Source: Gemmatimonadota bacterium | GTDB lineage: Bacteria > 4572-55 > J002 | Length of the DNA: 11,511 nt | Reading direction: 5' to 3' | NCBI GenBank assembly: GCA_003697105.1 | Contig: RFFQ01000165.1 | Coordinates: 1 to 11,511, forward strand | Shown here: positions 1,205-8,740 of the stretch, piece by piece | How the letters are laid out: every line of letters begins with the position of its first letter | How positions within the stretch are numbered: the first letter of the stretch is position 1 | Made by a program: the position numbers and the translations under genes | Notes under the pieces: model-generated | Databases searched by the model: none | Seen by the model: only the letters and a program-made list of their open reading frames with translations | Told to the model about the DNA's origin: nothing

Positions 1205-3010
1205 TTAATCGGTTGTCCCCGATTTAATTTTAAATTGCCGCACATGCATTCGCAGTTGTTCTGCCATATCTGCTAATATTTGGCTAGACGCGCTCATTTC
1301 TTGCATGGATGCCGTTTGTTCTTCAACGACGGAGGAGACGTTCTCGGAATTGGAGGCGTTCTCTTCCGCGATAGTAGCAATTGCTTCAATGGCGGTGACC
1401 AGCTCTTGAATTTCGTTCTGTTGATTTTCCGCCGATTGTAAAATTTTACGCACCATCACACTACTCCGTTGGACTTCATCCGCAATATGTTTCAGCACAT
1501 TTCCGGCTGATTTGATCACTTCTTCGCCGTAACTGACTTCTTTTGAGACGTTTTGAATCCCATTGACGGTCTGTTCGGTGGCTTGTTGGATTTCTTTCAC
1601 CAGTTTGCTGATTTCTTCTGTTTTTTGTTTGGTGTCATCTGCCAAAGAGCGGATATTAGAGGCAAGTACCTTAAATCCGCGTCCATGTTCTCCGGCGCGG
1701 GCGGCTTCGATGGCGGCGTTGAGTGAAAGCAGGTTGGTTTGCTGCGAAATACTGGCAATGGTACTGACAATCTTCCCAATTTGTTCGGATTTTTCACCTA
1801 AATTACTAACTAATTGTACGGTGTTATAGGTGACTTGGGAGATAGCGCTCATACGATTCAGCGCTTGTTCTGCAGAGGCGGTGGCTTCTCCGGCGGAGGA
1901 TGAGACTTCTCCCACGACCTGATCGGCCTCGCGAGCACTTCCGGCCATTTCCATGGCGGAATGGGAGACCTTCTCGGAATTGGACATCACGGAAATCAGT
2001 TGTTCCGATTGGCGATACGCGCCTTGAGCAATTTGCTCAATGGAACTGGACATTTCCTCTGTACTGGCAGTCACTTCTTCTGAAGAGGCAGACAGTTCCT
2101 CGGCGGTTGATGCCACTTCATTGGCGATCTGCGAAACGCGTTCCAAAATCAATGATATGTTTTCTAACATGGCGTTGAAGTTACTCTGGAGGTCGCCGAT
2201 CTGATTATGCGAGGTCACTTTGGCTCGAATTGTCAGGTCGCCGCTTCGTGCCGCTTTCATAATTCGTGACATTTCCGTGATCGGGTTGATGACCCACCAA
2301 ACGGTCATCAGGGGCACGATAATCCCAAATGCCAACAAGACCAGAGCAAAAATGGAAAGTGCCCACAGCATGGACTCCCGGGTTTGTTCGTTGACTTCAT
2401 TCAAAGAGTACCCTACCCGGACGATCCCAATGGGTTTATCTTCTGTGATGGGTTCGGCTTCCGGTTCGGTGTAGCTTTCATCTGTGTAATAGGTTGTGAT
2501 CTCATCCAGATAGGTATTTTCCGTGTCGAGTGCTGTTGTCGATTCGATTTGGACAAGATAGGCCATATCCAGTAATTTTTCCCCATCGGGGCTTTCTTCG
2601 ATGTTAATATATTGTTTGTCTAGGGTGACGGCGCGCAAGATGTCTGGGTCGATCGTGCGTTGCACAATTGGGCGGTAAAACTCGACATTTTCACTTTCTT
2701 GGATAGGTTCGGCGGGGGTATAGGTGTAAAAAATAATATACCGGATGTTTGTATCCCACGCGGTACCTACGATCAGACTTTGCAGATCGGCAGTGTTATG
2801 GCTGTAAACGGCGTACCAACTATTATGAGCTAAATTGCGAGTGATGGATTTTGCCCGGATTTCCAACTGCTTCTGGATAATATTTTTGCCTTTCACAATG
2901 GTTGCCGCACCGACCAGAACACTGGTTAAAAAAACCCCGACCAGCATCGTCAGAAAAAAGACGATGACCAGATTCTGAGTAAACCGATTGCGTTTCTTTT
3001 TTTTCGCCAT
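1205..3010 (-). CDS. Methyl-accepting chemotaxis protein with periplasmic sensor, HAMP and signalling domains
   Basis: This is a complete inner-membrane chemoreceptor of 601 residues, which would pass ligand signals to CheA/CheW. In order (numbered from the ATG): a basic N-terminus, membrane helix about 14-38, a periplasmic domain of about 175 residues with an acidic stretch near 165-195, membrane helix about 215-240, HAMP about 240-290, then a long coiled-coil hairpin. The tip holds [16 protein letters not shown] near 431-446. Just after it the usual VVA(D/E)E(I/V)R is replaced by VLASNIR. No C-terminal NWETF-type CheR tether is present. ATG at 3010 is preferred over the TTG four codons upstream because TGAGG lies 6 nt before it; it sits 8 bp after the binding-protein gene, so the two are surely co-transcribed. 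The ligand is unknown; the paired binding protein is the obvious candidate for presenting it. Confidence 0.93.
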
Positions 3011-3018
3011 TAGTTGCC

Positions 3019-3981
3019 TCAATGTATCTCTGAATTGGTTTGGATCGTTGGGGGAAGCTCAATATTCAAATATTTGGCGGTATTTTCATTGATATGCCGG
3101 AATCCGCGGGCACTGACATAGGGAATCTCAGCCGGCGGAGTTCCTTTCAAAACCTGATCGACCAATTCCGCGGCTTGTTTGCCCATGTCTTTATGATCCA
3201 CGGTGAGGGCGGCAAAGGCACCTTCCTTGACCTGAAAGTCGGCATAACCAAACAAGGGTATCTGGTTTTGCAAGGAAAATTTCATGATAAATTTCCAAGA
3301 TTCTTTACCGACGGGTTTTGTCCGATTTGCCACATTCAAATCAGGGATGACCCAGATGGCATCGACATTCCCTTCCAAATCCCGGAAAGCTTGCGGAACT
3401 TCCGCTTCATCCCGAATCTGTTTAGCGACCAGTGTTATACCTAAATCGGTAGCGATGGTTTTGGCGTTTTCAATCAGGGGGATATTGCGTTCACTATAAA
3501 CGACACCCACGTTTTGAACCGAGGGCAGAACGCGTTTAATATCTTGTAATTTTTCCGCTACCGGGATTTCCATATCCACCCCCGTCACATTTTGGCGATC
3601 CTCCGCAAAAATACGTTCCGGGTGGAGGAGAACCACAAACACAATCGGTATCTCTGGCGGGAGGTGTTTCTTAGCCAACATTGCCGCATGTCCGCCGATG
3701 GCGACCACTACCGATGCCGGAATGTCCTGAATCTCCTTCACATATTGGATGCCTTTCTCTTTATCACGATTCATGTCAAAATAGCTGATGCGCATATTTT
3801 CGCCATCTGTGTAACCCATTTGACGGATGGCATTGACAAATCCGCGTTCGGTTTCATCATAATCCCGTCGGGATTGAAATTTGAGGATCGCAATTTCATG
3901 CTCATAGGCAGGTAAGGTCTCGGCAAAAATCGAAAATAGAAGAACCAAAGGTACGATTCGTGAAAATAACCGGTTATGCAT
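3019..3981 (-). CDS. Periplasmic ABC-type substrate-binding protein (ABC_sub_bind, PF04392-like)
   Basis: The protein has 320 residues. A basic start and hydrophobic stretch (about 8-22) ending in TLPAY suggest a cleaved signal peptide; there is no lipobox Cys, so it should be soluble in the periplasm. The mature part looks like the two-lobed type-1 binding-protein fold of the family often annotated as ABC transporter substrate-binding: [19 protein letters not shown] near 47-66, [10 protein letters not shown] near 91-100, TGVDMEIP near 133-140, [19 protein letters not shown] near 241-259 and a helix [20 protein letters not shown] near 269-288. No permease or ATPase gene is adjacent; instead a chemoreceptor gene follows 8 bp after its stop codon. 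I infer a ligand-presenting sensor role rather than uptake, although a transporter could be encoded elsewhere. The ribosome-binding site before ATG 3981 is weak. Confidence 0.88.
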
Positions 3982-4304: not shown

Positions 4305-6416
4305 CTAAAACCGGTATCCGATCGTGGCTAAAAGCCACCGACCCGGTTGGGGATACGGGTGAACCACACTCCCTCCCTGCTCGTACTCCTCATCGAGCAG
4401 GTTATAGATACGGAAGTCAACGGATACCCCGCTATCATGGATATTGTTATAACGGACGCCCGCATTGAAGAGCACAACCGCATCCACTTCGTTTTCTGGA
4501 AAATTATAGCTCACTTCGGGTGAGGCTACAATATTGATCGGGGAGAGTTGTTTCCCCACATAACGTGCCGTCAGATTCACCCATAAATCGCGTTCTTGAC
4601 GGTAAAATGGTTTCACGTCCACAATAAGATTGCCAAACAGATTGGGGACGTTGTGGATTTGTTCGTCGGTTACAGCATAATTGACGGCATCCACTGCCCG
4701 TTGGTAGGTAAAATTTGCCCGAATTTTATAGGCGGGGTGGAGATAATCGATTTCGCCTTCAATGCCCCAACTTTCCAAACTACCGGCGTTTTGATATTTA
4801 ATTTCTGCCTCTGGATCGTTGTTTCGCCAGATAAAATCGGTCAATTCGCTGTAATATAGATTTAAGCGGTTGACCAGCCGTCCGTTCCACCACCGGAAGG
4901 TGGGGGTCAGTTGGTAGGCGGTCAAATATTCCGGTTTCAGGGATTCTGCGCCTTGATAGCTTGCAAGGGAATTATATCGGTACCAGTACGGACCATCCAC
5001 AAAGGATTCGGCGTAGGATGCCCGAATTTCCATCTGGTCAGATGGCAGAAAAATCAGTGCCAAACGCGGTGAAAAATCCGTGAGATTGTCTCCTTTGTGC
5101 CGGTCTTTATTATCAAACCGGAAGCCGGTGTTGAGAATCCATCGGTCGTTAAACCGGTGTTTGATCTGACCAAAACCGGAATACACGACCTCCTCACCCA
5201 GTTCTAAAAGGGGGTTCTGGCTATTTCCGATGAAACCCGACCATTCCCCCGGATTTTCAGCATCGTTTCCGATAGGGAAACTGCTATCATAGACGCGCAT
5301 TTTATCAATTTGCGCACCGAGCAGGACATTACCGGAGCCGAGGCGCCACTGGTAATGTCGATTCAACTGAAGTGTGCCGCCGGTACTGTATTCATCCCAG
5401 CGAGGTCCCGCGTACATTTTGACCGCCGGAGCTAAGATCAACACCGTGTTTAGATGATTCAGATTGTAGTAGGTTTGGACATCCACGCTCATCATCTCTG
5501 AAAGCTGTTTATGGTACTCTAGCCCGAAATGAGCGGATTGGGAGCTTAAGCCTGGACCTTCACCATCAAGGGTATTATAATCCGCGTAATGATAGAGTTG
5601 ACCAGTTGCGCCGCCACCGGAAAACGGTTCGATGTAATGGTTGTAGCGTTGGGTGGCTAATAATTTGAAGTCCCCAAAGCGATATTTAACGCCCACATCA
5701 TAAGCGGGGCGGTCTGTGACGCCACCGACAATTGCCTCTCCTCCCTGCGGATTTGCGGTGTAGTCCTTTTCGGCAGGAACATCCACTTTTTCCCCTTTGG
5801 CTTCATAAAACGTACCCCACAGCAGAACCTCATGGGACGCATCAAACGTTTTGCCGCATACAAAACTTCCTCTTTTTTGCCCGTAATTGCCGGCACTAAC
5901 CGACACCTGTGTCCCGTTTAGATCATTACCGGATTTGGTGATGATATTAATCACCGCGGTGAGTGCCACGTTGCCGTATAGTGGGGAGCCGGGTCCGCGC
6001 AGAATTTCAATCTGTTTGATTTTATCCAAACTGATGGAAAAATCCGGGTTGGCTTCGGAATAGGCACGGGAATTCAATCGAAAACCATCCAAAAAGATGA
6101 GGACTTTTTGCTGGGAGGAGGCGTAAATACCGCGCATAGCAATATTAATCTCATTATGATCCTGACTGAAGCTGAAGCCCGGGACATAAGTGATCAGCAA
6201 ATCTTTTAAGGTTAATGCTCCGCTATTCTGGATCATCTCACTGGTGATAACGGTTACCGGCACCGGGACTTCTTGCACCGGTTCGCTCTGTTTAGATGCC
6301 GTCACCACAACGACTTCTTCCACAACTTCTAATAATTCATCCCAATCATCCTGGGCGAGACCCCCCACAGGAAACGCCAACCCACTTATTAGACATATTA
6401 ACACAAGACGTAACAT
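4305..6416 (-). CDS. TonB-dependent outer-membrane receptor
   Basis: This is a ligand-gated outer-membrane channel of 703 residues, energised through TonB-ExbB-ExbD. Signal peptide about 1-22 (MLRLVLICLISGLAF then GGLAQ), TonB box EEVVVVTAS about 33-41, plug domain about 45-163 with TLKDLL, MRGIYASSQQKVLIFLDGFRLN split over 94-115, and RGPGSPLYGNVALTAVINII near 140-159. A beta-barrel with many aromatic strands follows and ends YRF, with the terminal Phe recognised by the outer-membrane assembly machinery. ATG 6416 is chosen over an upstream in-frame start at 6542 because GGAGG lies 9 nt before it, a signal peptide begins there, and the longer form would overlap the preceding gene. That gene ends 43 bp upstream, so it is the third gene of the chemoreceptor operon. 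The substrate (siderophore, cobalamin, saccharide or other) cannot be read from the sequence. Confidence 0.93.
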   Translation of the reverse strand: MLRLVLICLISGLAFPVGGLAQDDWDELLEVVEEVVVVTASKQSEPVQEVPVPVTVITSEMIQNSGALTLKDLLITYVPGFSFSQDHNEINIAMRGIYASSQQKVLIFLDGFRLNSRAYSEANPDFSISLDKIKQIEILRGPGSPLYGNVALTAVINIITKSGNDLNGTQVSVSAGNYGQKRGSFVCGKTFDASHEVLLWGTFYEAKGEKVDVPAEKDYTANPQGGEAIVGGVTDRPAYDVGVKYRFGDFKLLATQRYNHYIEPFSGGGATGQLYHYADYNTLDGEGPGLSSQSAHFGLEYHKQLSEMMSVDVQTYYNLNHLNTVLILAPAVKMYAGPRWDEYSTGGTLQLNRHYQWRLGSGNVLLGAQIDKMRVYDSSFPIGNDAENPGEWSGFIGNSQNPLLELGEEVVYSGFGQIKHRFNDRWILNTGFRFDNKDRHKGDNLTDFSPRLALIFLPSDQMEIRASYAESFVDGPYWYRYNSLASYQGAESLKPEYLTAYQLTPTFRWWNGRLVNRLNLYYSELTDFIWRNNDPEAEIKYQNAGSLESWGIEGEIDYLHPAYKIRANFTYQRAVDAVNYAVTDEQIHNVPNLFGNLIVDVKPFYRQERDLWVNLTARYVGKQLSPINIVASPEVSYNFPENEVDAVVLFNAGVRYNNIHDSGVSVDFRIYNLLDEEYEQGGSVVHPYPQPGRWLLATIGYRF

Positions 6417-6459
6417 GCGATATAACCTCCTTTTCCCCTTTGAAGTGGACAAAATACAG

Positions 6460-7029
6460 CTATTCACAGCCGTTTCCGGTGAAATACGGCTTACTACGGA
6501 GCTTTTTGGAGTATGACAATGGTGAAATTTCACAGTTGGCAATCAATTTGACCAATCGCCAACGCTCGATGGTGGGATCATCACTTTTGTTTTCATATAT
6601 CAACGTGGTGAACAAAAAATTTTGGTAGTTTTCGTCCAACATTCCGATGGTAAAAATGCCTTTTTCGGTGTACGTTTTCAATAACTTCAGGGATTTCGGA
6701 GTGGCATCCAAGACCCAGATGATTTGTCCTTCAAATGTTTCGAGGGTTGTTGCCTGCAATGGAATGACTTCAATGTGGTTATGCTGGGTTACGTTCTGCA
6801 CCAATTCCGCATCCCACGTTTTTAAGGATTTAAAGACATCTAAATCCGCGGCGGGAACGTCCGATTCGCTAAATACGCCAATTGTCAGTGTGTCCGTCTG
6901 ACTTTGGATGCCGGCAGACGCGGCGAATACCGGCAGGCTGTTGGCGAAGCGTTCCAATGTGTTTGCCGGTGCGCCAGCGAACCAGACCAGGACGAGTAGT
7001 CCGACGTTGAGGATTCGTAATATTGCCAT
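6460..7029 (-). CDS. Small exported protein, probably YfiR/DUF4154-like
   Basis: The product has 189 residues. The N-terminal hydrophobic stretch (about 5-20) followed by GAPA looks like a signal peptide. The core TLTIGVFSESDVP (about 47-59) and a helix-strand alternation around IEVIPLQA, GQIIWVLDA and GIFTIGML follow the alternating order of the YfiR/DUF4154 family. The C-terminal RLVKLIANCEISPLSYSKKLRSK resembles that family's ending, in which an Asn-Leu strand is followed by a final Ser-x-x-Leu helix. Two Cys near the C-terminus (166, 188) could form a disulfide. ATG 7029 has GGAGG 6 nt upstream. It lies 23 bp after the chemoreceptor gene and 43 bp before the TonB-dependent receptor. In Pseudomonas YfiR is a periplasmic repressor of the HAMP protein YfiN; here a similar adaptor role toward the chemoreceptor is an inference. 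The family call rests on weak similarity and context. Confidence 0.6.
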   Translation of the reverse strand: MAILRILNVGLLVLVWFAGAPANTLERFANSLPVFAASAGIQSQTDTLTIGVFSESDVPAADLDVFKSLKTWDAELVQNVTQHNHIEVIPLQATTLETFEGQIIWVLDATPKSLKLLKTYTEKGIFTIGMLDENYQNFLFTTLIYENKSDDPTIERWRLVKLIANCEISPLSYSKKLRSKPYFTGNGCE

Positions 7030-7052
7030 GATACGCCTCCACAGATGGGGGA

Positions 7053-8630
7053 TTATACCTTAAATTTGTCTATTAGTGCCGCTAACTTTTGCGCACATGC
7101 CACTGTGTTTTGGACCCGGATGCGAATATCGGTCATCGAAGTGGTTTGGTGTTGGGTGGCGGTGGATACATGTTGTGACAAATTGAGGTTGGTTTCTGCG
7201 GATTGTGCCACATTTTCTAAGGTTTTCACAAACGTTTGCACCATCTCTTTTTGCTGTGCCGCTAATTCACTAATATGGTGGATCACCTGAGCGGATTGAT
7301 CGGTTTCGGAGGCAATGGTTTGGAAGATGACGGTTGTTTCTTCAATGGCTTTTTTTCCTTCGCTGACTTTTGCGGTGACCACATCGGTTTGTTGCACCGT
7401 TTCGGCAGAGATTTTCTCAATTTCTTCGATGTAACGGGCAATATCTTGGGTAGCGTGTTCGGTTTGACTGGCTAAACGCCGGATTTCTTCAGCGACCACG
7501 GCGAACCCCCGCCCTTGTTCGCCGGCATGTGCCGCTTCTATGGCGGCGTTGAGGGCGAGCAAATTGACTTGCCGCGAAATGTCATCAATGACGCGCACAA
7601 TCGATTGAATCCGGCGGGATTTCTCGCTTAATGCTTTTACGGTATGCACTGCTTGATGAGAGACCTGCGACATATCCGCTATTTTCTGGGCAAGCGTCTG
7701 GATCGCCGTTGACCCGGATGATGCCGATTGGGTCACCGTCACCGAAACCCGCTGCGCTTCCTGTGCCGAGCGGTTGACTTGATCCGAAAATCCAGAAAGA
7801 TGACCTGAATCCTGAAGCATGTGTTCCACCCGGCGGGATTGCTGTTCCGCCCCGGCTGAAATGGATTGAACAACTTGGGTAACTTCTTGGGATTCCTCAC
7901 TAAGTTGGCTACTCGTTTGGCTCAAATCTACCATATTCTGGGTGATGGTTTCCGAGACGCTCACGACTTCCTGCACCAGTGCTTGCAAATGTGTCATAAA
8001 TTCATCAAATGTTTTTGCTAATAGCCCAATTTCATCGCGGGAATCCATATTTAACCGTTGGGTGAGATCGCCTTCACCTTTGGCAATTTCGCGTAAGCGT
8101 CTTATCACCTGCATAATTGGTTTGACGGCGATCAGGTTTAAAAATAGGGATAAGATGATTGCTACGATTAAGGTTGCCAGCGCCCCATAGCCCATAAATT
8201 TGAGTTCCGTGAGCCAAATTGAGCGGAAATCGCGGCGAAGTTTAACCCACAATGCGGTGCCACTCTCCGGGAGATAATGCTGGAGGATCACCTCTTCACC
8301 ATGATAATAGACCGTATCTTGCGGGACAATTGTCCTCTCAAAAGAACCCCAGTCTCCGGCAAGGGCAATACCCGGCTCAAACTCGGAATCAAACGCTACG
8401 GCAATATTCAGACGTTCGGCGGTCGTTTCCAGACGAATCTGTATCTCATCATATGCCTCAACATTGTACAACCCCTCGGCAATGTCTCCCAGTAGTAAGG
8501 CCTGGCTCATTCCTTCAGTGATGGTGCGTTCCCGTAAATTGGTAGCACCTTCAAAAAGACGAATCCCGTGCAGCACCAATAGGGTGAGAAACATGCCGCA
8601 AATGGTGGCTAAACTGATCTTTAATCGCAT
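7053..8630 (-). CDS. Methyl-accepting chemotaxis protein, first gene of the TonB-receptor operon
   Basis: A 525-residue chemoreceptor. Membrane helix about 6-25, a compact periplasmic domain of roughly 120 residues, membrane helix about 146-169, HAMP about 166-219 ([20 protein letters not shown]), then a coiled-coil hairpin with about 150 residues on each side of the tip. The tip is canonical: [20 protein letters not shown] near 357-376 followed by [11 protein letters not shown]. The helices are rich in Gln, Ser and Glu as expected for methylation sites; there is no CheR-binding pentapeptide at the end (IDKFKV). ATG 8630 is preferred to the TTG one codon upstream. Its periplasmic part is short, like the sensor of YfiN-type proteins, which fits regulation by the YfiR-like protein encoded 23 bp downstream. 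It differs clearly from the other chemoreceptor in this window outside the tip, so the two are not a recent duplication. Confidence 0.94.
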
Positions 8631-8678
8631 CAAACCATCCGGTTAAAGGCAACTATAGTCTGTATCTCCGTCTATTTC

Positions 8679-8707: not shown

Positions 8708-8740
8708 ATAAAAAATATCGCTTCAAGCCAAAAAGCGATA
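8706..8740 (-). terminator. Rho-independent terminator after the metallo-hydrolase gene
   Basis: On the minus strand an 8-bp stem (8740-8733 with 8723-8716, TATCGCTT/AAGCGATA) with a 9-nt loop is followed by TTTTTTATTT. It would close the gpmI-hydrolase operon about 110 bp after the hydrolase stop codon. Confidence 0.8.

Follow-up and report, generated by a model that had tools for sequence, protein, structure and literature searches.

A cassette of three minus-strand genes from a poorly known candidate phylum encodes, in order, the chemoreceptor MCP1, a small secreted protein with a predicted YfiR fold and a TonB-dependent receptor, an arrangement which suggests that the machinery for steering movement receives reports of what is imported across the outer membrane. 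The cassette lies in a window of 11,511 nucleotides, the whole of contig C44 in a 4.2-Mb draft genome (G000). Its closest comparison genome, G001 (recorded as Candidatus Cloacimonetes bacterium 4572_55), shares only its class and is the only other genome of the candidate phylum in the comparison set. Why should a transporter of the outer membrane be encoded with a chemoreceptor? We lean towards reading the cassette as a sensory path, in which a TonB-supplied ligand would lead a YfiR-fold adaptor to dock on MCP1, which would signal through CheA, with type IV pili or some other Che pathway as the output. Apart from the FecA/FecR sigma-factor route, little is known of whether, and by what means, TonB receptors signal their transport activity to the cytoplasm. 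If this reading is true, three genes would suffice to test transport-linked taxis directly, with a YfiR-fold adaptor placed between TonB receptor and chemoreceptor.

The three-gene order and the close spacing of the original prediction were borne out, with gaps of 23 bp between MCP1 and the small gene (7030-7052) and 43 bp between the small gene and the TonB receptor gene (6417-6459). The second gap holds only with ATG 6416, which is preceded by AGGAGG, as the start of the TonB receptor; the start given in the open reading frame listing, an upstream TTG at 6542, would overlap the small gene. MCP1 starts at ATG 8630. It is preceded by a terminator-like hairpin and T run (8716-8740, read 8740-8716 on the minus strand), one of two such sites found in the region where 0.3 are expected; lying between the metallo-hydrolase gene and MCP1, the hairpin sets the cassette apart from that gene and from gpmI, both upstream. 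An Rfam search returned no matches. Given the small gene, a rough estimate puts the chance of an MCP gene upstream and a TonB receptor gene downstream on the same strand at ~5e-6, taking ~3,500 genes, 11 MCP genes and 22 Plug genes in G000.

The small protein (189 aa; 6460-7029, minus strand) has an evident signal peptide, MAILRILNVGLLVLVWFAGAPA. It has no match in Pfam at E<=1 and none in NCBIfam, YfiR models included; single-sequence searches of PDB, PHROGs and Pfam yielded no useful match, and a PDB profile search with its family gave no meaningful match. DUF4154 (PF13689), the domain of YfiR, matches none of the nine family members, and a PF13689 search of G000 and G001 misses them all. 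The small protein is thus outside DUF4154 as defined. Its fold tells more. An AlphaFold2 model built from an alignment of eight members (pLDDT 88, pTM 0.81) has Pseudomonas YfiR as its top PDB match in Foldseek (E 5.1e-4). YfiR is also first in VIA-align (Z 11.8, rmsd 3.0, 139/147 residues), where the top group consists of YfiR entries (Z 11 to 12 over ~139 residues) and a single-lobe "substrate-binding protein" of Rhodothermus marinus, and unrelated folds appear only at Z 7.7 and below. Aligned profile to profile by hhalign, the family scores 34.4 against DUF4154, while the maximum among 60 column-shuffled controls is 18.3. A profile-profile comparison with 26 DUF4154 domains (P 1.5e-4) recovers the register seen in the structure comparison, joining the signature helix, the first strand, and the segments GQIIW and GIFTIG of the small-protein family with cHILF and pVLTVG of DUF4154. 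The predicted likeness to YfiR therefore holds at the level of fold, by Foldseek and VIA-align, and between profiles; it fails for membership of DUF4154, where the Pfam and NCBIfam searches were negative.

From the model and the profile comparison, we consider the small protein YfiR-like in fold and probably homologous to YfiR; with its relatives it forms an unrecognized YfiR-fold family, which implies that YfiR-fold proteins reach well beyond the DUF4154 profile. The only cysteines of the small protein are C166 and C188, invariant in the eight intact members, and the conserved cysteine pairs of P. aeruginosa YfiR, 71-110 and 145-152 (PMC4655355), are not kept. C166 and C188 probably form a disulfide unlike those of YfiR. 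An invariant WRL...NC..S segment is also present in the family.

MCP1 (525 aa; 7053-8630, minus strand) is a HAMP methyl-accepting chemotaxis receptor by its Pfam matches (PF00015 (MCPsignal), 2.5e-36; PF00672 (HAMP), 1.4e-9). It consists of two TM helices, a periplasmic domain of ~120 residues, HAMP and a cytoplasmic signalling domain with its hairpin tip (7203-7691, minus strand). The periplasmic sensor domain (residues ~24-145; 8196-8561, minus strand) is probably PAS/Cache-like, judging from a weak model (pLDDT 65) whose match to an extracytoplasmic PAS domain has Z 9.8. Is it a CHASE8 domain, as in YfiN? Pfam gives no CHASE8 match and hhalign gives P 0.02-0.07, which is not significant; with the model as weak as it is, CHASE8 identity is not established. 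We also set aside a match of MCP1 to NF053592, the sensor model of a YfiR-associated kinase, because it covers residues 127-216, the TM/HAMP end only, as in controls, MCP2 among them. The MCP1 homologue of G001 matches NF053592 over profile positions 10-222 of 223 (E 1.3e-6). Moreover, the sensor domain of MCP1 carries IAVAF, and its G001 homologue NAVVF, where YfiN has AAVVF, the proposed YfiR-binding motif (PMC3375315). The motif likeness and the profile match of the homologue are no more than suggestive. G000 also holds a full-length MCP1 paralogue (L072 3999-5606, G000:C115), 39% identical, with no small periplasmic gene adjoining.

Bona fide DUF4154 genes were surveyed for their neighbors in about 386 sampled genomes and in one genome of the phylum of G050. 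Among 37 further loci, the neighbors include a histidine kinase in 22, a TonB receptor in 20, an MCP in 3 and a GGDEF-motif protein in 1. The partners of DUF4154 genes vary among TonB receptors, kinases, MCPs and a GGDEF-motif protein; a second trio with an MCP was not found. One operon of G000 itself (G000:C24, L034 4147-11213) has the order TonB receptor, DUF4154, CHASE8-HAMP kinase, response regulator and hybrid kinase, and lies beside pilus assembly genes. Four genomes have a DUF4154 gene as the immediate upstream, or at least adjacent, neighbor of a HAMP chemoreceptor gene (L035 7887-10124, L132, L135 and L136), namely G001 (C106, where the spacing is 57 bp), G050, G052 and G194, and no TonB receptor adjoins these pairs. 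The sensor domains of the four chemoreceptors align with kinase sensors (P 1.5e-15); two are above the Pfam cut-off for CHASE8 and a third narrowly misses it. Most of these receptors carry CHASE8 (YfiN-type) domains. No known YfiR-MCP pairs were found on plasmids. The idea that a chemoreceptor takes the place of YfiN in the window cassette is made plausible by these four genomes, in most of which the receptor is of the CHASE8 type; the lack of a significant CHASE8 match in MCP1 itself counts against it.

What would such a receptor control? The chemotaxis genes of G000 include 11 for MCPs, two candidates for CheA and a CheW-CheY-CheA-CheC cluster, and several PilT proteins of this genome score above the cut-off. 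Flagellin was not found in G000 or G001, which makes flagellar taxis unlikely. If MCP1 drives motility, its output would probably pass to type IV pili rather than to flagella. In the path that we favor, the TonB-dependent receptor would bring a ligand into the periplasm, and the YfiR-fold protein would recognize that ligand, or a state that it causes. The adaptor may then dock on MCP1 at its PAS-like periplasmic domain and shift the output of HAMP and the signalling domain to CheA, with type IV pili, or some other Che output, as the most likely target of the response.

The TonB-dependent receptor (703 aa from ATG 6416; 4305-6416, minus strand) has barrel and Plug matches (PF00593, 4.5e-31; PF07715, 2.9e-19), and its plug region most resembles those of Cir and BtuB. 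A version close to the original prediction would give it the role of YfiB, with receptor occupancy altering its contact with, or sequestration of, a YfiR-like protein by which the chemoreceptor is otherwise kept in one state; the small protein would not need to bind a ligand. There is precedent in Pseudomonas, where the outer-membrane lipoprotein YfiB sequesters YfiR (PMC4655355, PMC4887326), and the 20 of 37 DUF4154 loci with an adjoining TonB receptor fit this scheme as well. We nevertheless think it unlikely. No FecA-type N-terminal domain or extra periplasmic signalling domain was detected in the window receptor, the open literature searched contained no mechanistic link of YfiR to TonB receptors and no contact between the two, and the fold of the small protein also occurs in solute-binding proteins.

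The distribution of the small-protein family bears on the remaining alternatives. There is one copy in G000 and there are eight in G001, one of them broken, and the small proteins of the two genomes share 39-49% identity; no relatives were detected beyond the phylum in 58 other sampled genomes, nor in genome contig records besides those of G001. One G001 copy lies 36 bp upstream of the MCP1 homologue, which is 44% identical to MCP1 over the sensor half, with no TonB receptor adjoining. Others lie directly upstream of TonB receptors on contigs C51 and C1, in one case by 30 bp. On G001:C1 (L015 7915-16379), three YfiR-fold genes are interleaved with three TonB receptors, a cluster which suggests local amplification of adaptor/receptor pairs. 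At least three copies are solitary, with neither an MCP nor a TonB receptor as neighbor (L013, L014, L016); that at L016 8198-8692 (G001:C27) is cut short by a stop codon and is apparently decaying. Only the pairs recur: each pairing is present in G001, where copies adjoin an MCP or a TonB receptor and never both, and all three genes together, with a chemoreceptor as sensor, are seen in the window only.

Could the small protein be a partner of the TonB receptor and of nothing else, perhaps a periplasmic carrier or an uptake accessory, with the chemoreceptor merely sharing the transcription unit? In G001, copies beside TonB receptors, the cluster of three included, outnumber the one beside an MCP, and a fold related to solute-binding proteins would suit a carrier. 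We regard this as rather improbable in view of an independent second case, in which the small protein is paired with a homologous chemoreceptor and no TonB receptor adjoins, and of the DUF4154 relatives, whose partners are MCPs or kinases much more often than transporters alone. That the neighborhood is a product of chance or a remnant of reshuffling, with three proteins acting independently, is very improbable, for although the exact trio was seen once and several G001 copies are solitary and one broken, the genes are tightly spaced on a single strand with a chance estimate near 5e-6, and both pairings recur in a relative whose small proteins are only 39-49% identical. The sensory path from TonB receptor through adaptor to MCP1 is supported by the fold of the small protein, the pairings in G001, the DUF4154 pairs and trios, the NF053592 match of the G001 homologue, and the presence of CheA and PilT. 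It is weakened because MCP1 has no significant CHASE8 match, the trio occurs once, G001 has solitary copies and the MCP1 paralogue at L072 is without a small protein.

A second pair of this kind lies downstream of the cassette. The gene of a periplasmic ABC_sub_bind protein (PF04392, Pfam 6.9e-45; 3019-3981, minus strand), whose fold is related to that of YfiR, overlaps by 4 bp the gene of the chemoreceptor MCP2 (1205-3022, minus strand), and no ABC permease adjoins the pair (1205-3981). The order TonB receptor, ABC_sub_bind, MCP recurs at G001:C109 (L070), and ABC_sub_bind with an MCP at G000:C143 (L071). In the YfiR structure paper, the fold closest to YfiR is an ABC_sub_bind protein, entry 3LFT (PMC4655355). 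The window ABC_sub_bind protein has matches to 3LFT (1.3e-20) and to the R. marinus protein (~1e-4); therefore, the two periplasmic partners in the window share a fold, and this favors a ligand-binding role for the small protein. Weak binding of Trp and of vitamin B6 is on record for YfiR (PMC4887326). More tentatively, and with somewhat less than even confidence, we propose that the YfiR-fold family, multiplied in this phylum, provides interchangeable adaptors linking TonB uptake to chemoreceptors for type IV pilus movement, and that the ABC_sub_bind-MCP2 module would do the same task with a related fold.

How does the cassette compare with known systems? Solute-binding proteins that report to chemoreceptors are familiar from maltose-binding protein with Tar, and both that pair and the window ABC_sub_bind-MCP2 module have a periplasmic protein reporting to a chemoreceptor. 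The small protein differs from such proteins in having one lobe and no adjoining ABC transporter. In YfiBNR of P. aeruginosa (YfiR, PF13689/DUF4154, NF053586), as in the window, a YfiR-fold gene adjoins that of a HAMP inner-membrane receptor whose periplasmic domain is PAS-like, probably so in MCP1, and an outer-membrane component is part of the system. The output there is a diguanylate cyclase rather than a chemoreceptor, the outer-membrane partner is the lipoprotein YfiB rather than a TonB receptor, and YfiR lies inside DUF4154 with two cysteine pairs, whereas the small protein lies outside the model with an invariant C166 and C188. Replacement of the GGDEF domain by MCP domains is on record in divergent YfiN homologues (Malone et al. 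2012, PMC3375315). The DUF4154-CHASE8 MCP pairs of G001:C106, G050, G052 and G194 likewise place a YfiR-type protein beside a HAMP chemoreceptor; they differ from the window in having a true DUF4154, mostly CHASE8 sensors, no adjoining TonB receptor and another gene order. The nearest curated relative is an NCBIfam trio with consecutive accessions, the TOL_0244 TonB receptor (NF053590), the TOL_0243 YfiR-like protein (NF053591) and the YfiR-associated histidine kinase (NF053592), which shares with the window an adjacent TonB receptor, YfiR-fold protein and HAMP sensor. Its sensor is a histidine kinase where the window has an MCP, NF053591 does not detect the small protein, and the window order of sensor, adaptor and TonB receptor differs, although one kinase version is so ordered (G080:C242). 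Relatives with other outputs were thus already known, and new here is that a single cassette unites a member of an unrecognized YfiR-fold family with a TonB receptor and with a chemoreceptor as the output.
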